From NCBI RefSeq assembly GCF_023115425.1, contig NZ_CP096032.1:620001-684000 (forward strand): a stretch of 64,000 bases of DNA, in the 5' to 3' direction. Each line of letters starts with the position of its first letter. Position 1 is the stretch's first letter. The position numbers were made by a program, and so were the translations under genes. This document shows positions 36,990 through 58,056 of this stretch, one piece after another. The notes beneath the pieces are model-generated. The model did no database searches and had not been told where the DNA came from. It saw only the letters and a program-made list of their open reading frames with translations. The stretch is from Synechococcus sp. A10-1-5-1. Its GTDB lineage: Bacteria; Cyanobacteriota; Cyanobacteriia; PCC-6307; Cyanobiaceae.

Positions 36990-37050
36990 GGGAAGGCCTG
37001 CCTGACCTGACCCTATCGGCCTAGGGTGACCCAAAGCCAAGCATCAAAGC

Positions 37051-37725: not shown

Positions 37726-37746
37726 GCGGGCGCTCCAGACAGCAAA

Positions 37747-37775: not shown

Positions 37776-37798
37776 CGTCATGCCGATGAGGACGGCAA

Positions 37799-37942
37799 TC
37801 AGCCGAGGCCGATCTGGGTCAGGATGCCCTGGCCGGTCAGCAGTTCGGTGGCCAGGCCGATCACAAAGCCCATCATGGCCAGGCGGCCATTCCAGGTCTC
37901 AGCGAAGTTGACGAAGCCGAAACGGGAATTGGAGTCAGCCAT
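37799..37942 (-). CDS. hli: High-light-inducible protein (HLIP)
   Basis: A 47-residue thylakoid protein with the Lhc-type helix ETWNGRLAMMGFVIGLATELLTGQG. The E-x-x-N-x-R chlorophyll-binding pattern and the following GFVIGLxTE are complete. HLIPs bind chlorophyll and carotenoid and protect photosystem assembly under excess light. It stands alone and is terminated by the shared hairpin. Confidence 0.95.
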   Translation of the reverse strand: MADSNSRFGFVNFAETWNGRLAMMGFVIGLATELLTGQGILTQIGLG

Positions 37943-38041
37943 TGGAGACGTCGTTACGAAACGTGTAGCAAGTGTAAAGCCTTGTTACGCCCCTTGGGCG
38001 TGTCCAAGAAGACGGTTTCCCGTGCTTTGCAAGCGGCACCC

Positions 38042-40543: not shown

Positions 40544-41488
40544 TCAAGCCAAAGTGCGGATGGCAGCCCAATAACTTGGATAAGTCGGCAGAGGCCGGAG
40601 CTGGTAAGAAGCAATTAGAGCTTCCACTCGACGGGTCGCAGCAGGGAGAGCAGAGGCAGGAATCGCAGGAAAAGCATGGTGAACACTGTGATAGGGAAGG
40701 CCACCCATGAAAAAGTTGACCCAATTAGGGACATGAATGGTGCTTGAAGCGTAGAGCTGCGTCAGAATGGGATGAGGGCAATTGGCGGCTAAACCCCAAT
40801 GCTCGATAAGAGCACGTAGCTGAAGGAAACCGCCAGCCAGACGTTCAACAACAATCCATGAAAAGAGATATTGGGGAAGGCAGTGAAGGTAGGTTGCGAG
40901 AGCAAGGAATAGAGCCTGTGTGACGGCAATACCGGCGAGGTCAACGAACAGACATCGGCTTAAACGAAAATCAGTTGAGCGCAAGACGAAGGAAGCATGA
41001 AATGTATGAACAATCAGACCGATACCGCCAAGGACGAACACATGCCACCACAGGGGATGACGAGCCTTCCAACCAAGCGAGCCCAACGTGCCTGGGAGGG
41101 GCTGGACACGTTCAGGGTCACGGGGATCGATGGAATTCCAAGAATGGTGGCGAAGATGAAGGAGGCGATAACTGGAGGAAGGCCAAGCCATGGGCCACCC
41201 AATCAGCAATGAGAAAACAAACTCAAGAGCAGGCAACCCGAGCAGAGTTCCATGACATGCCTCATGGCTTGCAATCAACAAAAAAGTTACTGCAGCTGCA
41301 ATTAGAAATAAGCCAATGGCACGAAGCAAGAAGAAATGAGGGACCCAATAAAGGAATATGCCTAAAGCCAGGGTAAGTAAAAGGATCAGAAGGCGGAGAT
41401 AACCAAAACGGGTGGGAGCTCCACTTAAAGAATTCAATTCATGACGAAGGGCCTTCACCACTGAAGGCACGGAAGAGAAAGCCGCCAT
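40544..41488 (-). CDS. Membrane fatty acid desaturase-family protein
   Basis: A 314-residue di-iron membrane enzyme. The three His boxes are HEACH (residue ~78), LRHH (~112) and HSVHH (~270), between paired hydrophobic segments; an additional EH (IEHWGL) precedes the third box. This fits the desaturase/hydroxylase/ketolase superfamily. Acyl-lipid desaturase and carotenoid hydroxylase or ketolase roles cannot be separated by eye. It is the first gene of the AT-rich island and is divergent from cfa, both lipid-related. Confidence 0.8.
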   Translation of the reverse strand: MAAFSSVPSVVKALRHELNSLSGAPTRFGYLRLLILLLTLALGIFLYWVPHFFLLRAIGLFLIAAAVTFLLIASHEACHGTLLGLPALEFVFSLLIGWPMAWPSSSYRLLHLRHHSWNSIDPRDPERVQPLPGTLGSLGWKARHPLWWHVFVLGGIGLIVHTFHASFVLRSTDFRLSRCLFVDLAGIAVTQALFLALATYLHCLPQYLFSWIVVERLAGGFLQLRALIEHWGLAANCPHPILTQLYASSTIHVPNWVNFFMGGLPYHSVHHAFPAIPASALPAATRRVEALIASYQLRPLPTYPSYWAAIRTLA

Positions 41489-41790
41489 AAAGAGAACAGA
41501 AGCAAATCAATCTAATGAAGGAAATGACAGACAATCACGGTGCAGCAGATAAGCACCAAGAAGGGTGCACCGAATAGAAGGAACAGAAGGACAGGGACAT
41601 CAACTAGTGATGCCGATAAGTGAACAGAGGAGTGAATGCAAAACGATCCAAGAAACAAAGAGAGCTAAAAGCTGAACGACTGAGCTGCAGGGAAGACCGG
41701 CGAAGACCTAATACTGCGCTGAAACTGCAGCAGATCTGAAACAAGACGAACGCAGTTCCGAAAAAATAGGTTATGTAATGTCAATTTGAA
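41489..41790. other. Purine-rich intergenic region with divergent promoters
   Basis: I see no gene. The plus strand is strongly enriched in A and G. It must hold the promoters of the desaturase (minus) and cfa (plus). GCAGCAGATCTG near 41730 resembles a motif (GAGCAGATCTGC) near 44545, before the next plus-strand genes. Confidence 0.4.
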
Positions 41791-43044
41791 ATGGCCATGA
41801 AGATTCCCTTGGCACTGACATCAGCTACTAAGGCTGCAGATGTCCAGTTCAATGGAAGACGGCCATGGGATGTTCAGGTCAACAACCCAAGACTTTATGG
41901 GGAGATCCTACGTCGAGGGTCTTTGGGGTTTGGCGATGGATATATGAATGGAGACTGGGACTGTGATGACCTCTGCGAGCTGATTAACCGTCTATTAAGG
42001 GCTAAGGCGAATCGACCTTTGAGCTGGTGGACGAGAACAGCTGAAGGCTGGAGATGGGTGCAAGAGAGACTTGTCAATCAGCAGTCAGAAGAAAGAACGC
42101 GTAAAAGAACGAGCCAGCACTACGACATTAATCCAGAGCTATATAGAGCGATGCTAGGGAAAACCATGACCTACAGCTGTGGTTATTGGCGTAATGCAAA
42201 GAGCCTAGACCAAGCACAAGAAGCAAAACTAGAGTTGATATGCAAGAAACTAGAGTTGAAAGAGGGTGAAAGGCTATTAGACCTGGGATGCGGATGGGGC
42301 TCACTGGCGAAACATGCAGCCGAGAACTACGGAGCAAGAGTCACTGGAATAACAGTGTCGAGAGAGCAGGCTGCATATCTCAAGGAGCAAACGACATGGC
42401 AAGACATCAGGGTCAAGGTATGTGACTATCGGCATCTCAATGACTTAGGTGAGGAGCCATTTGACAAGATTGCTTCGGTTGGCATGTATGAGCATGTAGG
42501 AAGGCTGAACGATAAAAGGTTCTATGACGTGATCAGCAAGGCCTTAAAGCCGGAGGGATTGGCACTCATCCACACAATTGGTTCAGTCGAGACAACGCAT
42601 CGGACGGATAAGTGGATCGATCGCTATGTCTTTCCTGGGGGCCGACTTCCATCAGCGGTGGATCTCTGCAAAGGACTAGAGAAGAAGTTCATCATTGAAG
42701 ACTGGGAAAGCTTCGGCACCGACTACGAAAGGACCTTGCGCTGTTGGCATGAAAACCTAGTTCAATCAAAACAAGACCAAGATTTGGTTCTTGACGATCG
42801 AGGCTACCGATTCTGGAAGTTCTACCTACTGAGTTGTGCAGGTTTTTTTAGATCGCGACAAGGTCAGCTGTGGCAAGTGGTACTGAGCAGGCCAGAGCGA
42901 ACTGATACTTATCGGTCATGGAGACCTGCAAGAACTAGAGATGAGGAATGTCCTGCGCTGCAAGTTGAGGCATTCAAAGGTCAACTGAGCTGCAGCGATG
43001 GAAAAGAACGGAAGATTGAAGGCAAGCTAAGAGCCAGCCTTTAA
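41791..43044 (+). CDS. cfa: Cyclopropane-fatty-acyl-phospholipid synthase
   Basis: A 417-residue enzyme that adds a methylene from S-adenosylmethionine across lipid double bonds. SAM motif LLDLGCGWGSL at residues ~163-173, TSQHYDINPELY before it, MTYSCGYW, and VGMYEHVG with the catalytic Glu region follow the Cfa order. DYERTLRCWHENL is also typical. Cfa is widespread in bacteria but scattered in picocyanobacteria. Seven bp separate it from the sigma factor gene, so the two are probably co-transcribed. Its codon use is AT-richer than that of the flanking core genes. Confidence 0.92.
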   Translation: MAMKIPLALTSATKAADVQFNGRRPWDVQVNNPRLYGEILRRGSLGFGDGYMNGDWDCDDLCELINRLLRAKANRPLSWWTRTAEGWRWVQERLVNQQSEERTRKRTSQHYDINPELYRAMLGKTMTYSCGYWRNAKSLDQAQEAKLELICKKLELKEGERLLDLGCGWGSLAKHAAENYGARVTGITVSREQAAYLKEQTTWQDIRVKVCDYRHLNDLGEEPFDKIASVGMYEHVGRLNDKRFYDVISKALKPEGLALIHTIGSVETTHRTDKWIDRYVFPGGRLPSAVDLCKGLEKKFIIEDWESFGTDYERTLRCWHENLVQSKQDQDLVLDDRGYRFWKFYLLSCAGFFRSRQGQLWQVVLSRPERTDTYRSWRPARTRDEECPALQVEAFKGQLSCSDGKERKIEGKLRASL

Positions 43045-43051
43045 CCACATC

Positions 43052-43933
43052 ATGGGCGATACCTTCGGGGACTATCTACGTACGATTGGAAGGGTACCGT
43101 TATTGACGGCGCAGGAGGAGATTCATCTCGGCTTAATTGTGAAGGAGTGGAAGGAGACAGACGGACCCTCGCGCTCGTTAGAGAAGAGAGGGAAGAGAGC
43201 AATGAATAGGATTGTCACAGCAAATTTGCGTTTGGTGGTGACTGTCTGCCTAAAATACAAAAGACGGCTAAGTCAATACGGTCATGACCCGATGGATCTT
43301 GTTCAGGCAGGAAACCTAGGATTGCTGAGAGCATCAGAGAAATATGATCCCAGTCGGGGATATAAGTTTTCTACGTATGCGTACTGGTGGATAAGGCAGT
43401 CAATTAATAGACACTTGCAAGAACATAGTGGAAATATGCGGATACCTCCAACGCTGACTAACCTGGCGCAAAAGGTTCACATGGCTCAGAGCGTAAGTGA
43501 GGATGGGACGACATTGGAGGAGCTGGCGGGAGCATTAGGTGAATCGTCCAAGAGAATCTTGCACGCGCTGACAGTAAACTATCGTGGCAACACTGTGTCA
43601 CTCGATCAACAGCTTTCAAGTTCAGATGGGTCGATGACCTTACTCGATACAGTGTCAGATGGGATTGGGCCAGAAATCGAAGAAGACTACACCTGGATGC
43701 ACGATCAGATGGAGATTCTGTCAACACCAGAGTTTGATGTGATAAGGCTGCGTTATGGGGAAGAAAAACAACGGTCCTACGCTGATGTCGCAAAGCTGAT
43801 GGGTCGCTCAAAAGACCAAGTGCAGCGCCTCGAACGTTACGCGCTCATCAAATTGAGGAAGAAGATTATGCCCATGCTGAATCCAGAGTTGACAACCTGG
43901 AGTGAACAGGCCAAAGCCCCAAAGAATGTCTAA
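43052..43933 (+). CDS. Divergent group 2 sigma-70 factor
   Basis: A 293-residue sigma factor. Region 1.2 DYLRTIGRVPLLTAQEE, region 2 DPMDLVQAGNLGLLRASEKYDPSRGYKFSTYAYWWIRQSI, then regions 3 and 4 (EFDVIRLRYGEEKQRSYADVAKLMGRSKDQVQRLE). Region 2.4 is conventional, but the segment after it (GNMRIPPTLTNLAQ) departs from the IRLPIHI usual in cyanobacterial group 2 factors, and region 4.2 is short and altered. It may recognise a modified -35 element. Position just behind cfa suggests a stress-linked regulon. Confidence 0.88.
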   Translation: MGDTFGDYLRTIGRVPLLTAQEEIHLGLIVKEWKETDGPSRSLEKRGKRAMNRIVTANLRLVVTVCLKYKRRLSQYGHDPMDLVQAGNLGLLRASEKYDPSRGYKFSTYAYWWIRQSINRHLQEHSGNMRIPPTLTNLAQKVHMAQSVSEDGTTLEELAGALGESSKRILHALTVNYRGNTVSLDQQLSSSDGSMTLLDTVSDGIGPEIEEDYTWMHDQMEILSTPEFDVIRLRYGEEKQRSYADVAKLMGRSKDQVQRLERYALIKLRKKIMPMLNPELTTWSEQAKAPKNV

Positions 43934-43964
43934 CTCCTTGGGGCCACAGGCTAAAAGGAAAGGG

Positions 43965-44213
43965 TCAGAGACGACGGTAGGCGTTAGGAGCACCACGCTC
44001 AAACTTATTACTCGTAGCTTGGGCAAGCGGTTGAGCAGGCAGTGATTGCTTGTGGCTGTCACGCAGAGCGTCTTCGAGAAGAAAGGCACAGAGATTGGAT
44101 ACAGAACGTCCTTCCTCCTCGGATCGATTTAAGAGTTCCTCATGAACGTGATAGCTCAAGGTAATAGAAATACGGCGTGGTTGACGCTGGAGCACACGAA
44201 CGCGGTCATTCAT
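43965..44213 (-). CDS. Ribbon-helix-helix protein, copy A
   Basis: An 82-residue protein from ATG 44213 (a start at 44264 is possible). RRISITLSYHVHEELLNRSEEEGRSVSNLCAFLLEDAL fits a MetJ/Arc RHH fold: one beta strand and two helices. It shares the core EGRSxSNLxAxLLExxL with frames at 48965 and 52741. A Lys/Arg-containing tail follows. Convergent with the sigma factor gene. No toxin partner lies beside it. Probably a DNA-binding regulator. Confidence 0.75.
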   Translation of the reverse strand: MNDRVRVLQRQPRRISITLSYHVHEELLNRSEEEGRSVSNLCAFLLEDALRDSHKQSLPAQPLAQATSNKFERGAPNAYRRL

Positions 44214-44985
44214 AGGAAAATGGAGAATGAGAGGATTGGTGAACTGGAAGGTCTCCCCTACCAATCATGAGAATAGAAGCTTTAGAGAGGTCAAAATACA
44301 GAGAACAGAGTCAAAAGCAGGACGGATCCGCAGCATGCTGCAGAAGGTAGAGGGAACAATGAAGCGAAGTGAGGCATAGGGGAAGGATGAATCAGGTGAC
44401 ATGGAGTTGTGAACCAAGAGAGAAAAAGGGGGAGGTCAAAGGAGGATGAGTGAATCTCATGTGATTAAAAAGCCGAGAAAAAGGGAGAAGAGAAGAATGG
44501 AAGGTCGTAAGAACTAGATGAGAGGAGGATATGCAGCAGATACTGAGCAGATCTGCCGAAAAGCGGTTCAGGACTGCAAGAGTCAGCTATCTATAGAGTA
44601 ACGGAGAAACAAATATGATTCAGGCAAAAACTGCACTCAAGGCAGAGTCCAGATTCACCAAGGGGATGCCGAGGCACTCGGGATGTGGGACGAGGTCCAG
44701 GGGAAGGGAAGAGAAAAGTGCCAGGAACGAAAGACTACAGATTTTAGAAGAGAATAGTAGAGAGATAGACCATATGTGCCATAGAGAAGCAAGAGAGGAT
44801 AAAGAGAGGAGGAAGGGGATTGATAGTAAAACAAGATTTCAGGCAGGATTGAGCAAAGAGATTAGAACAGGCAAAAAAGAAGAACAGTCATTGAAAGGCA
44901 TAGAACAGAAAGAAGAAAAGAAGAAGCTGGGTGTGGTAAACGCCAAGATAAGGATGGAAGAAAGAAGAGCTGCGGCAGAGGAAGA
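44214..44985. other. Purine-rich region of doubtful coding capacity
   Basis: The plus strand is nearly all A/G in long runs. A 124-residue frame (44615-44989, ATG) encodes a Lys/Glu/Arg-rich, low-complexity product that reads as translated purine tract. It overlaps the next gene's start by 4 bp (ATGA), a point in its favour. The palindrome GCAGATCTGC at 44547-44556 lies upstream. I see no RNA gene. Confidence 0.4.
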
Positions 44986-45984
44986 ATGAACATGAGGGCA
45001 GCGAGCTATCCAGTACCAAAAGACGAGGAACAAAGACTCCGAGACCTAAGGAGACATGGGGTACTAGACACAAACCATGATGAAAATTTCGAGCGGATTG
45101 TGAGTCTGACCGCAGAAGTTTTTGATGCTCCAATAACAATGATATCTTTGGTGGATCAGCAACGTCAGTGGTTTTTGGCTAGTAACGGATTGAATGTGAC
45201 AGAAACGCCGAGAGAAGTAGCATTCTGCGCTTACACAATCAATCAGGACAAGTCTCTGATCGTTCCAGACGCAAAAGTCGACTATCGCTTCAGACAAAAT
45301 CCACTTGTAACAGGCTCACCGTATATACGCTTCTATGCAGGAACACCACTGAAGTCAACTAGAGGTCACAATTTGGGGACGCTGTGCATTGTCGATAACA
45401 AGGAACGAGAACTGAACGAGAAAGAAGTCAGGATCTTAGAATTATTAGCTCAATTGGTAATACGTGAACTGGAGTTAAGGCGCAAGGCCTTGATCTGCCC
45501 ACTGACTGAAGTATTCAACAGAGAGAGCTTTTTGCAACTTGCAAAGATCGAGACGCAAGAAGCGAAAGACAAAGGGAAAGGGCTAAGCCTACTGTTATTT
45601 GACATCGATAACTTTGGTCAAATCAACAATCGATGGGGACATGAGGCGGGGAATCGGGTATTAAAGGAAATCTGTAGTGCGGTAAAGTCCTTACTCGAGG
45701 AAAGTGATTTATTTGGCCGAGTTGGTGATAACGAGTTTGCTGTCTTAATGCTAGACAGAGAGATGGAGTCATGCCTCGAGTTATCAGAGAGGATAAGAGT
45801 AGTCTTAGAAGAGCAGAAAGGTGTCTTTGATCATTCGGACTATCAACCATTAATGAGTGGCGGTTTGACCAATATGTCGACAACCGATAACTCGTTTTTT
45901 GAGATATTAAAGCGAAGTCAGGATGCACTTGACTTAGCGAAAGGCAATGGACGTAATCAGGTTGTAAGAATGCTAAGCCAATAA
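44986..45984 (+). CDS. GAF-GGDEF protein with altered signature
   Basis: A 332-residue cytoplasmic protein. A GAF domain (residues ~20-165: FERIVSLTAEVFDAPITMISLVD, RFYAGTPLKSTRGHNLGTLCIVD) is followed by a GGDEF domain (LLFDIDNFGQINNRWGHEAGNRVLKEI). The signature is G247-D-N-E-F in place of GGDEF, and no RxxD inhibitory site precedes it. The two changed positions may abolish diguanylate cyclase activity and leave a GTP or c-di-GMP sensor. It ends in a terminator. Confidence 0.85.
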   Translation: MNMRAASYPVPKDEEQRLRDLRRHGVLDTNHDENFERIVSLTAEVFDAPITMISLVDQQRQWFLASNGLNVTETPREVAFCAYTINQDKSLIVPDAKVDYRFRQNPLVTGSPYIRFYAGTPLKSTRGHNLGTLCIVDNKERELNEKEVRILELLAQLVIRELELRRKALICPLTEVFNRESFLQLAKIETQEAKDKGKGLSLLLFDIDNFGQINNRWGHEAGNRVLKEICSAVKSLLEESDLFGRVGDNEFAVLMLDREMESCLELSERIRVVLEEQKGVFDHSDYQPLMSGGLTNMSTTDNSFFEILKRSQDALDLAKGNGRNQVVRMLSQ

Positions 45985-45985
45985 G

Positions 45986-46010
45986 AACCGCCTACGTAAT
46001 GTAGGCGGTT
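45986..46010. terminator. Terminator hairpin after the GAF-GGDEF gene
   Basis: A perfect 10-bp stem AACCGCCTAC/GTAGGCGGTT with a GTAAT loop, one base after the stop. It may serve the convergent hsp20 gene as well. The T run is weak. Confidence 0.7.
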
Positions 46011-46027
46011 AGGATTAGCTGAAGGAT

Positions 46028-46459
46028 CTAGTTGACTGGAACCGGACGGTCCTCCTCGATTTGAGAGACATCATGCTTAGCGATGGTGACCGTTAGCTCG
46101 CCATGCTCACAAGTGGCCGAGATCTCAGCGGTGTTGACATCGTCTGGCAAAGAGAAGCTGCGGCAAAAACTGCCATAGGCTCTCTCAAGACGATGGAAGC
46201 GGGGTCGAAGCTCACGATCTTCGAGCGTACGCTCACCCTGAATCGTTAGTCGATTACCTGAAAGACTGACAGTAATATCTTGCTTTTGAAGCCCGGGGAC
46301 ATCAGCCTTGATTTGATACTGAGAATCGCTTTCAAAGATATCAACCCGTGGGCCGATATCAAGTGAACTCGGTGAAGCAATCCTGACACCAGGCCAACTC
46401 AGGGTTCGATCAAGGATGGACTGAATGTCGGTAAGGGGCTCCCATTTTGCGAGGTCCAT
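46028..46459 (-). CDS. Small heat-shock protein Hsp20
   Basis: A 143-residue alpha-crystallin chaperone. The core runs from VDIFESDSQYQIKADVPGLQKQDITVSLSGNRLTIQGER to the GELTVTIAK strand; the Y-G-SFCRSFSLPDDV segment is typical of bacterial class A Hsp20. The C-terminal I-x-I/V anchor is weak (DRPVPVN). Convergent with the GAF-GGDEF gene. Confidence 0.93.
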   Translation of the reverse strand: MDLAKWEPLTDIQSILDRTLSWPGVRIASPSSLDIGPRVDIFESDSQYQIKADVPGLQKQDITVSLSGNRLTIQGERTLEDRELRPRFHRLERAYGSFCRSFSLPDDVNTAEISATCEHGELTVTIAKHDVSQIEEDRPVPVN

Positions 46460-46619
46460 GAGAAAGCTTGTATGTTGCTAAGTGCCAACGAAAGGTAGAA
46501 TCAAGAAAAGCAGATAACAGAGTGAGAAGCAAAACTGGATCAGATGTACGGCATTATTGGTGAAGAAGGTAGGAAGCTAGAGCTAATAAGAACAAGATGG
46601 ATAGACAGGTAAAGGCGAG

Positions 46620-47897
46620 ATGAATGAAGAACAGAGGCAGAGATTTGTGAAGGGACCAAAAGGAGAGTGGCAACAATATCAGAACTGGCAATGGGTCTTG
46701 GAACCAAGGGATAGGATGAATGTAGCTATTAGATTTCTGGGTTCTGAAAAACGATTAAGGACATTTGATGAGTCCCTAATAGAAGAAGCATGCGAGATTG
46801 CAGGTTTGCCAGGGCTAATGACACCTGTGGTGTTAATGCCCAACACGCATAGGAGGTTTGGTTCGCTCTATGGATATGTCGCAGCATTTAGAAAGGGAAG
46901 GGAATCACTCATTCGACCTGGTGCTATCGAAATTGATAATGCCTGGGGGAGTCGCCTTCTAAAAACAAATCTCAAACGTGATGTAGTGGAAGAAGAGAGG
47001 GAGAAATTAGCTCATGTACTAGAGACTAGAATCGTAGAAGGCCTGAAGAATCGAGGATTTGAGAACTATGGAATGGACTCGATCGAACGTCTATTGAGAA
47101 ATGGGGCTCACTGGATAACAGAACAGGGAATTGGATACCTTGAAGATCTAGTAAGATGCGAAGATCTGGGAAGAATGCAATACGCCGATCCGGGGGCAAT
47201 CTCGGCACAGGCAAAAATGGCATTTAAGGATCGACTCAGTCATATTGGCAATGGAAATCATCATCTAGAGATACAAGTGATAGATCAGACCTTTGATCTA
47301 GAACGGTTAAACGCATTAGGTTTAGGGGAAGCAGATGTACTCGTTTTGATTGAGGCCGGATCGGCAGGTCTGAGTCAAAAGATATGTCGCGAAGAAACAG
47401 TGATTCTCGGAAAAGACCTATGGCAGCCCATTGAGTCTCAACACGGCAAAGAACTACTTGGGTCAATGCATGCCTGTCTCAATGCTGCTGCAGCTTATCG
47501 ACAGCTATTAACTCATCTCGTACGAGAAGCCATTGGGAGTATATGGCCTGATAGTCAAATCACAAATATTGTTGATATGTCCTCGAATAGCTACAAGCGA
47601 GAGCAACATGTCATTGGTCATGACAGCGTAGATCTATGGATTTGGCGTAGGGGTGCTGTACATGCCAATGGTCCATCGCACTACACAGAAAATGGGGAAT
47701 ACGAGTCAATGGGACGACCACTGATTCTCGGGGGAGCAATGGGCTCACATACAACCATTCTGTGTGGAGTCGATCAATCAGAAGAGCTCGCACTCTCCAG
47801 TGCACCATATGGAGCAGGGGCGGATGAATTGGCCGAGCAAGTAGGACTTGCACGGCCAATCGCTCGGCTAAAACCACTGTTTTGCCTTCAAGGCTAG
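46620..47897 (+). CDS. RtcB-family protein with most catalytic ligands replaced
   Basis: A 425-residue protein that aligns by eye over the whole length of the RNA ligase RtcB: IEIDNAWGSRLLKTNL, GNGNHHLEIQVID, LVLIEAGSAGLSQK, MHACLNAAAAYRQLL, SSNSYKRE, WRRGAVHANGP, PLILGGAMGSHTTILCG, APYGAGADEL. In active RtcB the matching blocks hold D-x-x-C, GNH, HSGSRG, HN and CHGxGR. Here D106 and H214 remain, but the metal Cys is W109, one metal His is E245, another is S322, and the guanylylated His is Y397. Ligation by the known route therefore looks impossible. The fold may have been adapted for RNA binding or another reaction. Confidence 0.85.
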   Translation: MNEEQRQRFVKGPKGEWQQYQNWQWVLEPRDRMNVAIRFLGSEKRLRTFDESLIEEACEIAGLPGLMTPVVLMPNTHRRFGSLYGYVAAFRKGRESLIRPGAIEIDNAWGSRLLKTNLKRDVVEEEREKLAHVLETRIVEGLKNRGFENYGMDSIERLLRNGAHWITEQGIGYLEDLVRCEDLGRMQYADPGAISAQAKMAFKDRLSHIGNGNHHLEIQVIDQTFDLERLNALGLGEADVLVLIEAGSAGLSQKICREETVILGKDLWQPIESQHGKELLGSMHACLNAAAAYRQLLTHLVREAIGSIWPDSQITNIVDMSSNSYKREQHVIGHDSVDLWIWRRGAVHANGPSHYTENGEYESMGRPLILGGAMGSHTTILCGVDQSEELALSSAPYGAGADELAEQVGLARPIARLKPLFCLQG

Positions 47898-47899
47898 GA

Positions 47900-48208
47900 T
47901 CAGATCAGTGGTGCTGATTGAGTGCGAGTTCGTCTGAGAGACTCATCAAGATCGCAGGGCGTGTAATCACCGCAGCATTGGTTGCCAGAGGTATGCGGCC
48001 AAAAGGCTATCGGCAATTGAAAGTCTGCAGAAAAAAGATCAGAGGAAATGGAGGAGAAGTTGCGCGCTCCATTACTAATTTCTATTGACTCCATACGATA
48101 GTGAGCTGGTGCATGACGAGTACATGGTGCAAGATTACCAAGATTAGAGTTTTGCAGCCCATTGGCTTGATCCCAATAGGAACATGTCTGGCAGTGCTGA
48201 TGGTTCAT
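47900..48208 (-). CDS. Cys-rich small protein (CxxC ... WPxT ... CGDY)
   Basis: A 102-residue protein from ATG 48208. C-x2-C (CQTCSYW) near the start, a Cys-x-x-His-Ala-Pro (CTRHAPAHY), then FWPHT and QCCGDYTP give a spaced set of metal-ligand residues seen in a widespread uncharacterised family with C-C-HAP-WP-CGD pattern. Probably a zinc or iron-sulfur binding protein. Convergent with the RtcB-like gene, only 2 bp apart. Confidence 0.65.
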   Translation of the reverse strand: MNHQHCQTCSYWDQANGLQNSNLGNLAPCTRHAPAHYRMESIEISNGARNFSSISSDLFSADFQLPIAFWPHTSGNQCCGDYTPCDLDESLRRTRTQSAPLI

Positions 48209-48718
48209 CGTAGGATTCTGACCAATCCGATTTAAGAAATGACAGTCAGCGGAGGGAAGAAAGTGCAGCCGATAAAGCACAGAATTACCGCAACAAGAAA
48301 GCAGCTAAGAATGAACTGGGAACAAAGAGATGAGTTATCGCGAAAGGATGTAAATAAGGAAATGCAGCGAGCGCGCATCAAATAGCGCAAAAGATAAAAT
48401 ACACTGAGGAAATATTCAATGTGGCAATAGGTAGCAAGCGAAAAACACTTTAGGGACATCAATAAGACCTGCCAGAAAAGAAATAGAGATAAAGATCAAA
48501 GAGCATCAGTTATGAGGCAGATCGGAGAATTGCTCAAGCCGCTTGGAGTAACTGGGTTAAGTAGGAATGCAATCAATCAGATAGGCGTGCAACTCGAACC
48601 GAATCGAAGGATCCGATGAAGCCGGCCCCAGAGCAGCAAGGCCCCATCGAGCCGCATGGTGTGGCAAAGTGATGCAGAACGCAGCGAGTTCAACTCAGAG
48701 ACGCTCTAGGCAAAGCTG
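48209..48718. other. Intergenic region, no convincing gene
   Basis: A minus-strand frame of 76 residues (48232-48462) contains one hydrophobic segment but begins inside a low-complexity stretch; I do not call it. The right part (48480-48710) is purine-rich on the plus strand and should hold the promoter for the RHH protein at 48719. Confidence 0.35.
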
Positions 48719-48931
48719 ATGACACGCAAGCAACTGTCAATGGTTTTGCCACCAGAGCTGCTGGAGCAGATCAAGGCACGAGCGAACAGCTTGGGCATCA
48801 GCACTACGGCCTACATCACCCGCTTGGTACGGCGTGATTTGGGGTTGGAGGTCATGGAGGACGTTGAATCGCGCCTGGAGGAGCTGGAAAACCGGCTAAA
48901 GGCCCTTGAACCACCCAGAAGAGACGCTTGA
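48719..48931 (+). CDS. Ribbon-helix-helix (CopG-like) protein
   Basis: A 70-residue protein. RKQLSMVLPPELLEQIKARANSLGISTTAYITRLVRRDLG is a standard CopG-type RHH unit, followed by a heptad-rich helix (DVESRLEELENRLKALE) likely to form a coiled coil. It differs from the EGRSxSNL subfamily found three times nearby. 33 bp upstream of another RHH gene. Confidence 0.82.
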   Translation: MTRKQLSMVLPPELLEQIKARANSLGISTTAYITRLVRRDLGLEVMEDVESRLEELENRLKALEPPRRDA

Positions 48932-48964
48932 ATCTATAGGCTATGTAGACTGGTTCTCAGGTCA

Positions 48965-49156
48965 ATGGATCGTGCGCGCTCGGACGCTGTGGAAGCTTCG
49001 ATGAGCGGAGCCCGGACAGCACGGGTTTGCGTCAGCGTCAGCAGTAATACACACGAAAAACTGCGTGCGATCGCTGCAGAGGAGGGGCGGAGCCTGAGCA
49101 ACCTGTGTGCTCACCTATTGGAGCAAGCACTCGAGGAGCGGATCGGAGCGCGATAA
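48965..49156 (+). CDS. Ribbon-helix-helix protein, copy B
   Basis: A 63-residue protein. ARVCVSVSSNTHEKLRAIAAEEGRSLSNLCAHLLEQALEE carries the same core as copies A and C. An alternative ATG at 49001 would give a 51-residue form that retains the whole fold. It sits between the CopG-like gene and the HLIP gene on the same strand and could regulate either. Confidence 0.75.
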   Translation: MDRARSDAVEASMSGARTARVCVSVSSNTHEKLRAIAAEEGRSLSNLCAHLLEQALEERIGAR

Positions 49157-49246
49157 CAGCTGCAGCACTTAGCACCCATTCAGCAGCAATTTGGGGAAAT
49201 GAATTCTCACAGACGCGAGAAGCAGCTTGCATGAGTAGGTCAATAC

Positions 49247-49408
49247 ATGATGGACATGAACAAGAAAATCAACTGGGGTTGGACCGAACAAGCTGAACGA
49301 TGGAACGGGCGCTTGGCGATGCTGGGCTTTGTTATTGGATTAGCAACCGAGCTGATGACCAATCAAGGCGTGTTCCAACAAATCAAAAGCGTATTTCCCT
49401 TCGCCTAA
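49247..49408 (+). CDS. hli: High-light-inducible protein, island copy
   Basis: A 53-residue HLIP: WTEQAERWNGRLAMLGFVIGLATELMTNQG retains the chlorophyll-binding E-x-x-N-x-R helix. Starts at ATG 49247 (another at 49256). Compared with the copy at 37799 it has a longer, hydrophobic C-terminus (FQQIKSVFPFA). Codon use follows the AT-rich island, suggesting acquisition or long residence there. Confidence 0.92.
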   Translation: MMDMNKKINWGWTEQAERWNGRLAMLGFVIGLATELMTNQGVFQQIKSVFPFA

Positions 49409-49494
49409 GCACATTTGCCGCATCGATGCTGCAAAGGTCACAAACAGATCCTAGGGGGTAAGAAAGTAGTGGTTCCACACGCAATGAGATTGCC

Positions 49495-49719
49495 ATGACT
49501 GCTGGTGACTGGGAAGTGGGGTTCAAAGGACAGAGCCTTGAGGAACTCCTAAATGGGGACGATGCGGCTCAAACCCTGTGGTTTCTCGCTGGTTATTTAA
49601 AAGGAATGTCGGATGGCAGTGAGATGCATGCAGGGGTAAGGCAAATGCTGTTTGAAGTCACAGGTGAAAACAGCTGGAGACTTCAGTCAAAGGCAATCAC
49701 TGAGAATGCAAGACGATAA
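49495..49719 (+). CDS. Small hypothetical protein, 74 residues
   Basis: A soluble, acidic protein (SLEELLNGDDAAQTLWFLAGYLKGMSDG). No family recognised. 7 bp before the next small gene, which overlaps the ATPase gene, so all three are likely co-transcribed. Confidence 0.55.
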   Translation: MTAGDWEVGFKGQSLEELLNGDDAAQTLWFLAGYLKGMSDGSEMHAGVRQMLFEVTGENSWRLQSKAITENARR

Positions 49720-49726
49720 TCAATAG

Positions 49727-49942
49727 ATGTTTGTGAGCAAAGAAGAACCCATCCGCATAACAACAGGATGTTATACGGTCAGAATCTCCGAACTCAAGCG
49801 TGAATTAGAAGATATATTCGAACACTCAAGGAAAACAAAACATACTGAGGATGAGGTCGAAAGTCTGACTCAAAGGGTAAAGCCCATTTACGGAGCAATT
49901 ATTGCAATGTATGGAGAAGTCAGACAGACACAACAAGAATGA
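49727..49942 (+). CDS. Small hypothetical protein, 71 residues
   Basis: A helical, highly charged protein (ISELKRELEDIFEHSRKTKHTEDEVESLTQRV). Its stop overlaps the ATPase start (ATGA), indicating coupled translation, so it may be an accessory or regulatory partner of the pump. No family recognised. Confidence 0.6.
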   Translation: MFVSKEEPIRITTGCYTVRISELKRELEDIFEHSRKTKHTEDEVESLTQRVKPIYGAIIAMYGEVRQTQQE

Positions 49943-52581
49943 AGATTAGCGACGCAGAAAGTCCCTGGCATGCCATCGATGCCAATAAGGTCTGGGAGTT
50001 AGTTGGATCAAGCATTGAGGGACTGAGTACTCAAGAAGCAACAAGACGGTTGCAGGAGACAGGAGCCAATGTCTTACCTCAACCTGCATCACCGAACCTT
50101 ATACACACACTCTTACGACAGCTGAAGAGTCCGCTCATTGCTGTCCTTGGCGTGGCAGCCATGCTCTCTGCCGTCGTAGGAGATGAGAAAGATGCACTAT
50201 TGATCAGTGCGGTGGTAGCCGTCAATGCAGTCATAGGTGGCTTGCAGGAATGGAAAGCACATGCTCGCTGCTTTGCACTACGCCAATTGATCAAAGTGCA
50301 AGCAATCGTCTTACGTGATCGAAAGAAGGTTGAACTCAATTCAGAAAGTCTTGTGATTGGTGATGCAATATGGCTCGAAAGCGGTCAAGTCGTTCCCGCC
50401 GATGTGAGGTTGGTCGATAGCCACAATCTTGAAATCGACGAATCGCTACTAACTGGTGAATCAGGAGCGGTACAAAAAAGGGCGAAAGGGTTCATAGCAG
50501 CGAAAACCCCCCTGGCTGAGCGGGGCACCATGGCCTATGCAGGGACAACAGTCAGTCGGGGGAGAGGACTTGGAGTCGTTGTAGCAACCGGTAAAACAAC
50601 CGAGGTTGGAGACCTCGCATCAGATCTTCAAACCGTGCCACCAGGAAAACCACCTCTTGTGGTTCGCATGGATCTCTTCAGTAAGAGAGTTGGTGTATTC
50701 GTGATCATCTCTGCCGCTGCTGTTGGCTGGCTATCGATTGCTCAAGGGGGAACAGACCTTTTAACGGCATTAAAACTGGCAGTAGCTCTAGCGGTCTCCG
50801 CTATCCCTGAAGGATTACCGGTGGCATTAACGGTCGCCTTATCGGTAGCAAGCCATCGAATGGCAAAACAGAAGGTGATTGTCCGTCGACTTCCCGCCGT
50901 AGAAGGTCTTGGAAGTTGCACCCTAATTGCAAGTGATAAAACAGGAACACTGACCTACAATCAACTCTCAGTTCAAGAGGTAGTATTAAGGGGAGAGCCT
51001 CCAATTAGACTAGTTCTTCACCAGAAAGAAAAAAGAGAAAATCCCAGACAGCTGGAGAGATTACTTCCGATAGCTCGCTGCGCTGTACTCTGTAATGAGG
51101 GCGAGGTTTATAAAAAGGACGACTGGTGGGAAGGGCGTGGAGATCCGACTGATCAAGCATTGTTGATCATGGGAATTGAACTCGGTGTATCAAAGCAGAA
51201 GGAGTTGCTTGAGCAGCCGCAGTGCAACACAATTCCCTTCGAACCGGAGCAGCGTTATGCAGCAAGTTTTCACCAAAGAGATGATGGGGAAGTCATGGTG
51301 GCGGTCAAAGGAGCGCCTGAGAGAATCATCCCAATGTGTCAGCCAGAGGCACAGTGGGGAATTGAGGCAGCTGAAGAACTAGCGAATCGAGGACTACGAG
51401 TACTCGCCCTAGCTTCAGGAACCACCAGTAAGAGTGCCCTAGAAGAGACAACACCTTCTGAACCAGGGAACTTGCAGCTATTGGGTGTGATCGGATTAAG
51501 AGACCCCCTACGCAGAGGGGCAAAGGAAGCCATTGATCAATGCCACCAGGCCGGTATCAGAGTCTGGATCGTCACGGGAGATCACCCTACGACTGCAGGA
51601 ATCGTTGGGAAGGAATTAGGGATCATCAAAAATACCCTTGATGTCGTCACTGGGGCTGAAATCGAGGCAGCCAGTCCAGAAAGCCTAAAAAGAATCGTCT
51701 CTCGAGCTAATGTTTATGCAAGGGTATCCCCACATCAAAAGCTCTTATTGGTTGAGCAAGCACAGAAAGCTGGTGAATTCGTTGCGGTAACGGGGGATGG
51801 TGTGAATGATGCTCCGGCCCTCCGTGCAGCTCAGATCGGCATCGCAATGGGACGTGCAGGAACAGACGTTGCGCGTGATGCGGCTGATTTGATCCTGCTT
51901 GATGATGGTTTTCCATCAATCGTAGATGGAATCCAACAAGGGCGAATTGCTTACGACAATGTTCGAAAGGTCATCGTCCTTCTTGTGTCTTGTGGCGCAG
52001 CAGAAATCACAGTACTCGCACTAGCCGTTGGATTCTCGCTCCCACTACCACTTCTTCCAGTTCAATTGCTATGGCTGAACCTCGTCACCAATGGGATCCA
52101 AGATGTTGCTCTTGCATTCGAACCGGAAGAGGGAGATGTGCTTAAACGAAGGCCCAGGCCGCCGCAGGAAGCGGTGTTTAATGGGCTGCTAATCAAACGC
52201 ACTGCGCTTGCGGCTGTCGTTATGGGTGGAGTCGGATTTATTTTATTTTCTGAGTTACTGAAACACGGCTGGGGTGTGGAACAGGCGCGGAACGCATTAC
52301 TGCTTCAGATGGTCATGTTTGAGACGGTGCAAGCCGGTAACAGCAGACTGGAAAGAAAGTCCGTCTTCCAGGATCAGCCCTGGCACTCACCGGTGGTCGT
52401 AGCGGGTACAGCCGGTGGCTTCGCACTCCACGTTTGGATGATGAACTGGGGTGTGGGGTCAGCAGCCCTCGGAACTGGGCCACTACCAGTCGATCTATGG
52501 CTTGTGATCAGCGGACTGAGCTTGTGCCCTTTGGTTGCGGTCGAGATCCAGAAGACATTGGTAAGGCGGAAGGTCCTTTAA
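49939..52581 (+). CDS. P2-type cation-transporting ATPase
   Basis: An 880-residue pump. N-terminal cation-ATPase domain, TM4 motif AVSAIPEGLP, phosphorylation site DKTGTLT at D333, GDGVNDAPAL hinge, and the TM6 region LWLNLVTNGIQDVALAFEP. TGES (LLTGESGAV) is in the actuator domain. The TM4 PEGLP places it in the P2 group (Ca2+, or less certainly Na+/Mn2+). The usual D of NLVTDG in TM6 is N here, as in some bacterial relatives, so ion choice is open. Its 3' end overlaps the RHH copy C frame on the opposite strand. Confidence 0.93.
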   Translation: MKISDAESPWHAIDANKVWELVGSSIEGLSTQEATRRLQETGANVLPQPASPNLIHTLLRQLKSPLIAVLGVAAMLSAVVGDEKDALLISAVVAVNAVIGGLQEWKAHARCFALRQLIKVQAIVLRDRKKVELNSESLVIGDAIWLESGQVVPADVRLVDSHNLEIDESLLTGESGAVQKRAKGFIAAKTPLAERGTMAYAGTTVSRGRGLGVVVATGKTTEVGDLASDLQTVPPGKPPLVVRMDLFSKRVGVFVIISAAAVGWLSIAQGGTDLLTALKLAVALAVSAIPEGLPVALTVALSVASHRMAKQKVIVRRLPAVEGLGSCTLIASDKTGTLTYNQLSVQEVVLRGEPPIRLVLHQKEKRENPRQLERLLPIARCAVLCNEGEVYKKDDWWEGRGDPTDQALLIMGIELGVSKQKELLEQPQCNTIPFEPEQRYAASFHQRDDGEVMVAVKGAPERIIPMCQPEAQWGIEAAEELANRGLRVLALASGTTSKSALEETTPSEPGNLQLLGVIGLRDPLRRGAKEAIDQCHQAGIRVWIVTGDHPTTAGIVGKELGIIKNTLDVVTGAEIEAASPESLKRIVSRANVYARVSPHQKLLLVEQAQKAGEFVAVTGDGVNDAPALRAAQIGIAMGRAGTDVARDAADLILLDDGFPSIVDGIQQGRIAYDNVRKVIVLLVSCGAAEITVLALAVGFSLPLPLLPVQLLWLNLVTNGIQDVALAFEPEEGDVLKRRPRPPQEAVFNGLLIKRTALAAVVMGGVGFILFSELLKHGWGVEQARNALLLQMVMFETVQAGNSRLERKSVFQDQPWHSPVVVAGTAGGFALHVWMMNWGVGSAALGTGPLPVDLWLVISGLSLCPLVAVEIQKTLVRRKVL

Positions 52582-52741
52582 CGCCACTCAGGCTGCTCTC
52601 AAGGAGATAGGCCGCAAGATTGCTCAACGAACGACCTTCGGCATCACTTCGGCGGACAAGCGCTTCAAATAAGAAATGAGGAAGGGTGATCGATAGTCGC
52701 TGGCTAGAGCGCATGACGGATGGTTTCAACACGTGGCTCAT
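52508..52741 (-). CDS. Ribbon-helix-helix protein, copy C
   Basis: A 77-residue protein from ATG 52741 (52714 possible). QRLSITLPHFLFEALVRRSDAEGRSLSNLAAYLLESSL repeats the core of copies A and B. The C-terminal 24 codons lie antisense to the end of the ATPase gene, a tail-to-tail overlap of 74 bp. This end is Ser/Pro-rich and probably not structured. Confidence 0.7.
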   Translation of the reverse strand: MSHVLKPSVMRSSQRLSITLPHFLFEALVRRSDAEGRSLSNLAAYLLESSLSGVKGPSALPMSSGSRPQPKGTSSVR

Positions 52742-52819
52742 GCCCCAGGGGTCGTTGATCCAACCCTCGGCGAATCTCGGCCTAAATCTCAAGTCCCGCA
52801 CAAGGGACACGTCCCTAAA

Positions 52820-52954
52820 TCAGGACCCCATGAGTGTTTCACCGCAGACATAGAATGCCAAGAACGCAGACAGGGCAATGAAGTGAAGCATCGCGCCCAG
52901 GAAAACGTCAGCCGGCCATGATGTAGAAAGGATGTAGAAGGCTGTAGAACCCAT
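52820..52954 (-). CDS. Possible 44-residue membrane peptide
   Basis: MGSTAFYILSTSWPADVFLGAMLHFIALSAFLAFYVC... has one clear span and a Ser/Trp-rich N-terminus. Its ATG overlaps the proposed TTG start of the divergent LuxR gene, so at most one of the two starts is right as drawn. Confidence 0.35.
   Translation of the reverse strand: MGSTAFYILSTSWPADVFLGAMLHFIALSAFLAFYVCGETLMGS
52920..52949. promoter_or_regulatory. Three phased TGTAGAA repeats before the LuxR-type gene
   Basis: TGTAGAA occurs at 52922, 52933 and 52943, spaced 11 and 10 bp (one helical turn). The first two share GATGTAGAA. They lie 5-32 bp before the start and could be binding sites for an autoregulator. Confidence 0.5.
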
Positions 52955-53559
52955 TGAAGGCACTGTTTCTCCACGAGAACACCATGTGCCTTGCGCTAGG
53001 GAGTCTTCTTGCTGAAGCATGGGACTTCCATGTGCTGGAACTGTTCACGGATACAGAATCCGCCATCACTTGGATCGAACAAGAAAAGCCAGACCTCCTA
53101 ATCAGCGAGTGGAAATCAGGAGACATCGATTCGAAACGCTCAGTAGATGCACTCATTAAGACGAATCCATCGGGGAAAATCATTTTTATCAGCACAACTC
53201 GAGAACAACGAGACATTCCCGCCAAGCTTCTCCCTTTTATAATAGGGGTCGTTGACAAGTCAAAGGGATGGAATGAGCTGAACGAAGCACTTCGACGATG
53301 GAATGCAGCTCAACACGTAGACAAACAAATAAAAGCAAAGATTAATCTAGAAGAACTAAGTCGACTGGCTCCAAGAGAACTGCGCCTGTTATGTGAGCTA
53401 GGTAAAGGACGCGTCAACAAGGAGATCGCACAATCACTAGAACTTTCACAGAATACCGTAGCGACTTATCGCAAGATCATTGCTCAGAAGCTAAGGATTA
53501 GCGGATCTGAGCTGGTTCGTGTAGCCGTATTAGCGCGGTGCCTTAACTTATGTGATTAA
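52954..53559 (+). CDS. LuxR-type regulator with degenerate receiver domain
   Basis: A 201-residue protein. The N-terminal ~115 residues follow a receiver fold (KALFLHE, PDLLISEWKSG, KIIFIST, VVDKSKG) but the phospho-accepting Asp is E52, and the acidic pair after the first strand is H-E. The C-terminal HTH (RLAPRELRLLCELGKGRVNKEIAQSLELSQNTVATYRKIIAQKL) is intact. Start TTG 52954 gives the first receiver strand; the next ATG would cut it. It lies upstream of the trehalose genes and may control them (inference). Confidence 0.82.
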   Translation: MKALFLHENTMCLALGSLLAEAWDFHVLELFTDTESAITWIEQEKPDLLISEWKSGDIDSKRSVDALIKTNPSGKIIFISTTREQRDIPAKLLPFIIGVVDKSKGWNELNEALRRWNAAQHVDKQIKAKINLEELSRLAPRELRLLCELGKGRVNKEIAQSLELSQNTVATYRKIIAQKLRISGSELVRVAVLARCLNLCD

Positions 53560-53822
53560 CAAGCTTTCATACGATCAATCCGTCAAGGATCACTCCAAGG
53601 TAAAGAACAAGTTCAAGTCCATCGGTCGTAGGCAGACGAAGGACCAGTGAATCAGTCGAGATCTTGTGAAGAGAGGCGGAGGTGCGGTAGGTCACGGTCA
53701 AAAAGCATCACTGGAAGTACTGGTCTGCACAGATAACGCTGAGGAACTGCGGCTTAAGTGAGGTGCGACAGACCTCGTCTTGAAAACAAGACCATCATGA
53801 AGAAGGCATCCACCTGATATTC

Positions 53823-55388
53823 ATGCAGTCCACAAATGTGCCGATGAGTATCGGTGAATCAAATAATACCAATCACTGCACACGACAACAACTTCAGGAG
53901 TTACTACAGAACAGCTTCGGAGATCTCCCGATGTTGTTGGTCTCCAATCGAGAACCTTGGATCCATTCTCATTGCGACAATGGATGGATTGAAGCCAATC
54001 GCCCGGCCAGCGGCTTGGTTACCGCATTAGAGCCATTCGCTGAAGCAACGGGTGGGACGTGGATTGCCCATGGAAGCGGAAATGCCGATCGTTGCACAGT
54101 CGATGAAAAAGATGCCGTAAATGTTCCACCAGATATGCCTCAGTATCGCCTGCGGCGCGTATGGCTTAGCAAAGCTGAAGTCGAAGACTACTACTCAAAT
54201 TTGTCTAACCGCGGATTATGGCCTCTTTGCCATGTTGCATTTGTAGCACCCTTGTTTGAGCATCACCACTGGCAAGTCTACCGAGAAGTTAATCAGCGTT
54301 TTGCTGAGGTGATTCTTGAAGAGGCCGCAGGAAAGCCAGCCTTGGTCTTTATACAGGACTATCACCTAAGCCTTGTCTCACGGATACTGCGTGAAGCAAA
54401 TCCAAATCTAATTACCGTTCAGTTTTGGCACGTACCTTGGCCAAACCGAGAGGTGTTAAGAACATTTCCCTACGCCGATGAACTCATACATGGATTACTT
54501 GGGAATGATCTACTGGGATTCCAGAGCAAATCCCACGCGCATAACTTTCTTGATGCAGCTGACCGGCTAGTCGAAGCGCGGGTTGATCTAGAGCAAGAAC
54601 AAGTCTCACAAAATGGGCATCGAACACTTGTTGGCAGCTACCCAATCAGTATCGACTTTGACTATTGGAATGAGGTTGGAGCAAGCGATGAGGTTGACTT
54701 AAGCATGAAGCAATGGATCAGTGAACTGAACCTAGAAACTGATCAGCTGTTGATTGTTGGCATGGAGCGACTGGATTACACAAAAGGCTTAATGCAAAGA
54801 CTGCATGCTATTGATCGCCTTTTGCAACTTGATCCATCTCTAAAAGGGCGACTTCAAGTTGTCCAACTACTAGTTAGTTCACGTGGGACAATTAGTGAAT
54901 ATCGGATCCTTCGTCAAGAGATTGAAGCATTGACTAGGCAGATTAATCGACGCTGGGCAGACGGCGGCTGGAGGCCGATTCAGCTAAAGATTGAAGACCG
55001 AAGTTTGATCGATCGCGTTGCTCTACTGCGTTTGGGACGCTGTTGTGTCGTCAGCTCTCTGCACGACGGGATGAATCTGGTGGCAAAAGAGTTCGTTGCT
55101 TCTCGCTCTGATGGTGATGGAACTCTGGTACTCAGCAGATTCACTGGCAGCGCGCAGGAACTGACGGGTGCGCTACTGGTCAATCCCTATTCCGTAGAGG
55201 CCCTGGCTCAGAGCATGCAGCGGGCGCTTTTGATGCCAGAGCGAGAAAGGCGCATGCGCATGACTCAGATGAGAAAACAAGTGGCCGATCAGAATATCTA
55301 TCAATGGGGCAGCTCGATTGTTTCTGACATCCAGCGAGTCAGGCAGCGCAAGGCTCTGAAGTCAGACGTAAGCACATTAACAGTTTAG
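53823..55388 (+). CDS. otsA: Trehalose-6-phosphate synthase (GT20)
   Basis: A 521-residue glycosyltransferase joining UDP- or ADP-glucose with glucose-6-phosphate. Segments: LLVSNREPW, NRPASGLVTAL, QDYHLSLVSRILRE, FWHVPWPNREVLRTFP, GMERLDYTKGLMQRL and SSLHDGMNLVAKEFVASR. These are GT20 signatures; glucosylglycerol-phosphate synthase is the main alternative in cyanobacteria, but the treS and phosphatase neighbours favour trehalose. A start at residue 8 is possible. The gene is AT-richer than core genes. 263 bp of non-coding sequence precede it, with a short hairpin GTCTTG-AAAA-CAAGAC at 53776-53791. Confidence 0.85.
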   Translation: MQSTNVPMSIGESNNTNHCTRQQLQELLQNSFGDLPMLLVSNREPWIHSHCDNGWIEANRPASGLVTALEPFAEATGGTWIAHGSGNADRCTVDEKDAVNVPPDMPQYRLRRVWLSKAEVEDYYSNLSNRGLWPLCHVAFVAPLFEHHHWQVYREVNQRFAEVILEEAAGKPALVFIQDYHLSLVSRILREANPNLITVQFWHVPWPNREVLRTFPYADELIHGLLGNDLLGFQSKSHAHNFLDAADRLVEARVDLEQEQVSQNGHRTLVGSYPISIDFDYWNEVGASDEVDLSMKQWISELNLETDQLLIVGMERLDYTKGLMQRLHAIDRLLQLDPSLKGRLQVVQLLVSSRGTISEYRILRQEIEALTRQINRRWADGGWRPIQLKIEDRSLIDRVALLRLGRCCVVSSLHDGMNLVAKEFVASRSDGDGTLVLSRFTGSAQELTGALLVNPYSVEALAQSMQRALLMPERERRMRMTQMRKQVADQNIYQWGSSIVSDIQRVRQRKALKSDVSTLTV

Positions 55389-55427
55389 CCCTAGCAAACA
55401 TCCACAGTCCAATCCATAGACAATCAA

Positions 55428-57892: not shown

Positions 57893-58056
57893 CCCCCCAC
57901 TGCCACACAGCCTCCGAGTCCCCTGATGGATTCAGAGTCTGCGTTCCAGGACGGCCTCGATGAAATCGAACGGGTAGGAGCAGGACTCATCACAACGCCG
58001 CATCGTCCGTTCTGTTACGCACCTGTACTTCGATCAAGAGATTCATGCCAGTGCCG

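Follow-up and report, generated by a model that had tools for sequence, protein, structure and literature searches.

The window analysed here, a stretch of 64,000 nucleotides from Synechococcus sp. A10-1-5-1, contains an AT-rich island of stress genes in which an open reading frame related to the RNA ligase RtcB, referred to below as the pseudo-ligase, lies between genes for Hsp20 and a Cys-rich protein (Table 1). The island carries genes for a desaturase, cyclopropane synthase, sigma factor, GAF-GGDEF protein, Hsp20, the pseudo-ligase, RHH proteins, HLI, a P-type ATPase and trehalose metabolism, with a fatty acid desaturase, trehalose-phosphate synthase-like, trehalose synthase-like and trehalose phosphatase genes among them, followed by HypE and HypD. 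The first-pass annotation of this DNA had placed the gene in an island next to Hsp20 and small RHH proteins, and this setting was recovered, with stress genes around the pseudo-ligase.

Table 1. Features of the pseudo-ligase locus (positions in the window; residues of RtcB in PhRtcB numbering)
Feature	Position	Strand	Basis or remark
AT-rich stress-gene island	40544..58000	.	GC, families, divergence from G021; right edge approximate
RHH-type protein	43965-44264	-	Neighbour scan
GAF-GGDEF protein	44986-45984	+	Neighbour scan
Hsp20, divergent neighbour	46028..46459	-	Start 160 bp from pseudo-ligase start; same arrangement in G021 and G010
RtcB-fold pseudo-ligase	46620..47897	+	ORF of 425 aa; Pfam and PhRtcB matches; predicted structure
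Former metal-site loop DNAW	46935..46946	+	D106 aligns with D95 (kept); W109 in place of bridging C98
N213-H214	47256..47261	+	Align with N202-H203, both kept; PhRtcB alignment and 81-relative alignment
EAGSA	47352..47366	+	E245 in place of H234; A249 in place of R238
S322	47583..47585	+	In place of H329; PhRtcB alignment and 81-relative alignment
Y397	47808..47810	+	In place of guanylylated H404; PhRtcB alignment and 81-relative alignment
Shortened C-terminus	47811..47894	+	28 residues past the H404 position; Q424 in place of K480
Cys-rich protein, 102 aa (MNHQHCQTC...)	47900..48208	-	Convergent, 2 bp away; no Pfam or NCBIfam match
RHH-type protein	48719-48931	+	Pfam matches below their cut-offs
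RHH-type protein	48965-49156	+	Neighbour scan

The locus was compared with other genomes of the genus, which are denoted by numbers, the window's own genome being G000. In the left flank (26615-40321), eight ORFs are 87–97% identical between the window and G021, and a ninth (35062-35889) is 60% identical over part of its length. Inside the island, the eight ORFs with a match in G021 are 38–68% identical and their matches are located elsewhere in G021; the rest have no match there. The island cyclopropane synthase gave only weak matches (at most 39.6 bits) in G012, G013, G016 and G019. The GC content of the island is ~0.48 versus 0.63 in the left flank, and that of the G021 block is 0.53 versus 0.63–0.67. 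A conserved genus core with shared gene order was rejected for the locus on the strength of the divergence of flank and block from G021, the AT-richness and the weak cyclopropane synthase matches; the locus is an island with old, shared content. The syntenic block is AT-shifted in the window and in G021 and not in six other genus genomes (G003, G005, G010, G014, G015 and G018), whose stretches have a GC content of 0.63–0.68, the block of G003 and G010 being at 0.64; the rpoB loci of the four of those six that were measured are at 0.63–0.65.

Across the genomes compared, and with local losses, a recurring gene order was found: cyclopropane synthase, sigma factor, RHH, GAF-GGDEF, Hsp20, the pseudo-ligase where present, Cys-rich protein, SpoIIAA-like, RHH, RHH, HLI, small proteins and P-type ATPase. 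The SpoIIAA-like gene is missing from the window at its place in this order, and the Cys-rich gene has no match in G021. The G003 contig begins at the pseudo-ligase, and only the side away from Hsp20 is visible there. In seven genomes without the pseudo-ligase (G004, G005, G008, G009, G014, G015 and G024), Hsp20 and the Cys-rich gene are spaced by 84–135 bp, and no RtcB remnant was detected at these seven sites or at that of G018 (best E 0.12). In G018 (L153, 182-1108), an RHH-like ORF and a small, secreted-looking ORF lie between Hsp20 and the Cys-rich gene, which suggests that this is a variable site. The Cys-rich 102-aa protein is present in 11 of the 25 genus genomes and lies directly upstream of Hsp20 in seven of those.

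The tie of the pseudo-ligase to Hsp20 is one of position alone. A search of the window for the CIRCE operator motif gave no match, a promoter and terminator scan found two and zero elements respectively, under the shuffle means, and an alignment of the upstream regions of three genomes revealed no clear shared element. The sequence GGDEF is the consensus signature of the GGDEF domain, and the GAF-GGDEF neighbour departs from it, with GDNEF in the window, VDEEL in G021 and GDEEF in G010, G005 and G014; judged by this motif, it too may be a pseudoenzyme.

The pseudo-ligase ORF starts with ATG and has no internal stops. Pfam family PF01139 covers its residues 58–400 (E 8.1e-61; 206.9 bits versus a curated cut-off of 27), and the P. 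horikoshii enzyme (PhRtcB, 1uc2) matched it with a phmmer E of 9.2e-54. By these sequence comparisons, which agree with the family assignment of the first-pass annotation, the pseudo-ligase is homologous to RtcB along almost all of its length. When the genome to which the window belongs (2.40 Mb, one contig) was searched with PF01139, the pseudo-ligase was the single match, i.e. no other RtcB was found, and the Archease and RtcA families had zero matches in the same genome.

For residue-level comparison, the best 80 of 207 relatives were kept, six of these were removed, and seven cyanobacterial proteins (L006–L010, L022 and L023) were added to the remaining 74, giving a set of 81 live relatives that was aligned with MAFFT. 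The six removed were L027 and L080, which are the dead copies of G003 and G010, and L060, L084, L085 and L088, which are short or partial. Row L011 (near L010) and rows L012–L018 (weak or fragmentary) were left unused. Residues of RtcB are given in PhRtcB numbering, counted from the PhRtcB alignment or offset from the human residues of PMC8668186.

According to the sections of PMC8668186 and PMC10630183 that deal with the active site, one Mn2+ of RtcB is held by C98, H234 and H329 and the other by D95, C98 and H203, H404 is the guanylylated residue, and the GMP contacts in human RTCB are E230, S409, K504, N226, A430 and G431. Among the metal ligands D95, C98, H203, H234 and H329, the window protein retains D95 and H203 only; N202 and E206 (as E217) are kept as well. 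The first-pass annotation had read W109, E245, S322 and Y397 as replacing C98, H234, H329 and H404, with D106 and H214 as the sole surviving ligands, and the PhRtcB alignment places every one of these residues accordingly. The losses go beyond that list: R408 is replaced by A401, K351 by R344 and S385 by T378, R238 and K480 are replaced too, and ~49 residues past H404 are missing. R238 and R408 presumably act at the RNA phosphate.

Orthologues were identified in three further genomes, with 42% (G021), 38–39% (G003) and 35–38% (G010) identity to the window protein. None of the four retains C98, H404, R238, R408, K351 or S385, all of which are present in each of the 81 live relatives. In the order G000, G021, G003 and G010, the alignment columns read W, Y, F, G at C98; H, H, H, R at H203; E, E, H, L at H234; S, H, H, Y at H329; Y, W, C, P at H404; A, A, A, G at R238; R, Q, C, N at K351; T, T, T, A at S385; and Q, Q, Q, K at K480. 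The tail past the H404 position has 28, 28, 28 and 32 residues versus 75–118 (median 77) in the 81 live relatives. In the guanylate pocket, S385 is replaced in four of four, K480 in three of four, and the C-terminal segment is gone from all. H234 and H329 are invariant too in the live set, H203 is kept in 80 of 81 and K480 is changed to E in one. The live RtcB without H203 is a full-length protein of Enhygromyxa salina (L096), with Leu at this metal-ligand position. Overall, 45 of the 149 live-conserved columns are retained in all four orthologues.

A residual or shifted active site was ruled out: no orthologue has a His past the H404 position, the C98 column holds only W, Y, F or G, and the window protein has no Cys within residues 95–120. 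The catalytic Cys and His are therefore not present at shifted positions, which the first-pass annotation had named as an observation that would overturn its claim of a catalytically dead protein; that claim stands, and the known RtcB chemistry should be impossible for the window protein. Judged by these residues, ligation and guanylylation by the window protein are excluded with high confidence.

The pseudo-ligase is dispensable in the genus, being present in 4 of 25 genomes, the window's included. The contig of G003 (draft, 75% complete) equals one of the MAG Vulcanococcus sp. SFB_649D_100_25, and G010 is the MAG Synechococcaceae bacterium WBB_10_009 (draft, 82% complete). The gene is missing from G009, which is closest to G010 on Hsp20 and the Cys-rich protein (85% identity), and from G013 (one contig), which groups with G000 and G021 on RpoB DNA; in the RpoB tree, the rows of G006 and G017 stood on a branch of ~5, probably from a wrong frame, and were ignored, and G003 and G010 had no RpoB match. 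Matches to PF01139 were found in 6 of 400 genomes of the taxonomic family, namely the four dead copies and full-length RtcBs in G271 and G325. A profile built from the four and run against 399 genomes of the order recovered G000, G021, G271 and G325, with G003 and G010 absent among the matches listed. A single-protein scan of named genomes gave 53 pattern matches, none of them a relative.

Trees were built with 48 and 30 rows. The four dead copies form one side of a branch in both (SH-aLRT 93 and 98, respectively), their branches are long and were flagged as unsure by the tree program, and the dead clade groups with the live G271 and G325 proteins at a support of 44 in the 30-row tree. All four copies occupy one site in one orientation. 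Since the losses of C98, H404, R238 and the C-terminal segment are common to the three orthologues, the comparison describes a clade of pseudo-ligases rather than a single decayed gene, and because similarly broken versions occur in three related species, the protein is probably a retained non-enzyme and not a fresh accident. The expectation in the first-pass annotation of homologues with the same substitutions was borne out for the positions (C98 and H404 are lost in four of four) and not for the replacing residues, which differ between species. Its converse scenario, intact homologues and a window copy decayed by random mutation, does not describe the same-locus orthologues, which are also dead, but slow decay across the clade persists as a rival and is weighed below.

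In the simplest history, a common ancestor would have lost the nucleophile, the bridging Cys, the Arg and the C-terminal segment once, and some lineages would later have lost H234, H329 and H203 too; G003 retains all three. Because the C-terminal deletion of G010 differs by 4 residues, activity may instead have been lost separately.

An AlphaFold2 model of the pseudo-ligase was calculated from a 46-sequence alignment (pLDDT 91.3, pTM 0.91) and leans on live RtcBs, which make up 43 of the 46 rows; a prediction from three dead sequences alone was uninformative (pLDDT 49). Foldseek returned 16 matches for the model at E ≤0.001, all of them RtcB chains. VIA-align gave a Z of 48.9 and an rmsd of 1.9 over 401 residues to 2epg and a Z of 45.0 to 4dwq, the Z values against T. 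thermophilus and P. horikoshii RtcB structures ranging from 44.8 to 48.9. As far as this model goes, the window sequence is compatible with the whole-length RtcB fold.

Selection and decay were assessed on the ORFs, which are intact in all four orthologues. Among the four, pN is 0.40–0.44 versus 0.71–0.74 with shuffled codons, and pS is 0.63–0.83 versus a control of 0.67–0.82, i.e. saturated in five of six pairs and mostly not below the control; with this saturation, no dN/dS could be obtained. In each of the six pairs, variation increases from codon position 2 to 1 to 3. At live-variable columns the four have a mean identity of 0.22, which climbs to 0.54 at live-conserved columns; of the 32 Gly that never vary in live RtcBs, 19 are retained by every one of the four. 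Ten residues shared by the four, W17, W309, H334 and D335 among them, are found in <10% of live RtcBs. If activity died separately in each species, part of this constraint signal could be older than the loss.

A preferential loss of active-site residues was sought by Fisher tests of active-site versus other conserved columns and was not found in three of four species (p 0.76, 0.22 and 1; 0.0006 in G010), so that the pattern looks like broad relaxation and not targeted remodelling. The pseudo-ligase evolves faster than most of its neighbours, which are mostly 49–70% identical, comparably low values being confined to small or single neighbours; those in G021 below the 42% of the pseudo-ligase are a 71-aa protein (36%) and a response regulator (38%).

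Conserved basic positions were examined with regard to RNA binding. Eighteen columns are basic in ≥90% of the live relatives; at seven of these, all four orthologues lack a basic residue (249 and 401 of the window protein and five columns that are gaps in it), five are basic in all four and six are mixed. Net charge is -11, -13, -18 and -8 for G000, G021, G003 and G010 versus a live mean of -1.6 (sd 5.7, range -14 to 18), three of the four values falling within the live range, and 12, 4, 1 and 0 of the 81 live relatives lie at or below -8, -11, -13 and -18, respectively. The K/R content is 11.1, 6.3, 6.2 and 8.3% versus a live mean of 11.2%. Charge is therefore weak evidence, with no clear split of the four from live RtcBs, and the conserved basic residues that are gone count, to a moderate degree, against an RNA-end sensor, so that RNA-end binding by the pseudo-ligase looks unlikely.

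Taken together, the kept fold, the lack of a shared pocket chemistry, the lack of a second RtcB and the stress-gene setting make a protein-binding role our best guess, ahead of a relic, RNA binding and new chemistry. We tentatively regard the pseudo-ligase as a non-catalytic, protein-binding scaffold or regulator in the stress locus, and hold this reading at less than even confidence. Because these losses recur at one locus in four species, a single loss of activity that predates their split is most likely; the protein would then have diverged with its ORF intact and its fold positions constrained. It would no longer join RNA and probably no longer bind RNA ends, would most likely bind another protein, and may be made under stress together with the divergently transcribed Hsp20. 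Candidate contact points are the GHD loop (333–335), W309 and W17, which are conserved in the dead clade and rare in live RtcBs. With a little more reserve, we propose that these proteins could be the first RtcB pseudoenzyme family, in which the fold came to regulate a heat- and osmotic-stress locus or to serve it as a protein-binding adaptor, possibly with Hsp20, in a lineage where active RtcB is rare.

The main rival, which we consider unlikely, is a functionless relic, i.e. a ligase gene dead since the ancestor of the genus and drifting in the island, its ORF open by chance and lost species by species. Such a relic would account for the patchy presence, the fast evolution and the even loss of active-site and other conserved columns in three of four species, as well as for an island that is AT-rich and divergent in two of the four. 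It sits poorly with four intact ORFs despite saturated synonymous divergence, with a constraint that follows the positions conserved in live RtcBs, with the lack of fragments at all eight sites without the gene and with the presence of the gene in G003 and G010, where the block is not AT-rich. A pseudo-ligase that binds or shields the 5'-OH or cyclic-phosphate RNA ends arising in stressed cells but does not join them, the sensor put forward in the first-pass annotation, is less likely again. The modelled RtcB fold and the stress-gene context would suit it, as would N213, H214 and E217, kept in three of four, R112, R294, R302, R343 and N323, kept in all four, a K/R content in the window protein equal to the live mean and the three net charges inside the live range. 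The sensor nevertheless lost ground with R238 and R408, both gone from all four, with K351, replaced in all four though by Arg in the window, and with the basic residues of the missing segment; a K/R content of 6% in G021 and G003 and a genome without a second RtcB or Archease weigh against it too.

A new chemistry, with D106, H214, their neighbours and E245 arranged as a different one-metal site that acts as a hydrolase or otherwise, is improbable: D106 is kept in four of four, H214 in three of four and E245 is common to the window and G021, but no new set of pocket residues is common to all four, and in G010 the H203, H234 and H329 positions carry R, L and Y. That ligation persists by an unrecognised arrangement is scarcely credible; the residue positions do rest on alignment, but the pocket segment is missing and the four proteins have no His beyond the position of H404. 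A dominant-negative partner of a live RtcB was rejected for the window's genome on the single PF01139 match and the lack of Archease and RtcA matches. A phage origin or anti-phage role found no support in the scans made. Viral contigs yielded 30 pattern matches and no relatives, no phage DNA similar to the pseudo-ligase was found, and distant RtcB-like matches in 13 phage and 17 plasmid records were all <60% identical (20–32% among the matches listed). PADLOC defence models (2023 library), run on ten proteins, did not match the pseudo-ligase or eight others, the one match being that of a GlgB model to the trehalose-synthase-like gene.

RtcB is a widely conserved RNA-repair enzyme. The 3'-phosphate/5'-OH RNA ligases of this family (PF01139; P. 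horikoshii PH1602, human RTCB and T. thermophilus TTHA1785) resemble the pseudo-ligase in the predicted whole-length fold; the latter differs in lacking the nucleophile His, the bridging Cys, two Arg and the guanylate-pocket segment, and in coming from a genome without Archease or RtcA. In the open-access literature searched, no description of an RtcB pseudoenzyme was found, and in the parts of PMC12699882, PMC9223846 and PMC13247085 that concern RtcBs, these are treated as active or as members of RtcB complexes. The RtcB2-PrfH operon (PMC9223846) and the M. xanthus RtcB paralogues (PMC10630183) are likewise bacterial RtcB variants with special roles, but unlike the pseudo-ligase they are described, in the relevant portions of these papers, with ligation, repair or capping activity; among the pseudo-ligase neighbours scanned, no release-factor family was matched. 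Cyanobacterial pseudo-orthocaspases (PMC6426788 and PMC7889975) offer a precedent for retained cyanobacterial pseudoenzymes, although they belong to a protease family unrelated to the RtcB pseudo-ligase. A clade that has held on to the fold but not to its reaction, in a genome where nothing else matches RtcB, would provide a clean test of the non-ligation roles of that fold, and it cautions that genes of this kind should not be labelled RNA ligases.

The full-length RtcBs of G325 and G271 belong to the same taxonomic family, the G325 protein being 33–40% identical to the four. Unlike the pseudo-ligase, they have intact catalytic residues and adjoin a PGA_cap (CapA-like) gene, not Hsp20. This gene lies within ~10 bp downstream of the live rtcB in both genomes (L107, 6772-9681; L108, 1158-4521). 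Searches for capA gave no match in the stretches searched of the four dead-RtcB genomes and of G015. A capA relative was found without RtcB in the blocks of G005, G014 and G018 (loci L158, L159 and L153, the last being that of G018), and among the stretches of the best 80 of 207 relatives, three carry one, directly after rtcB in L067.
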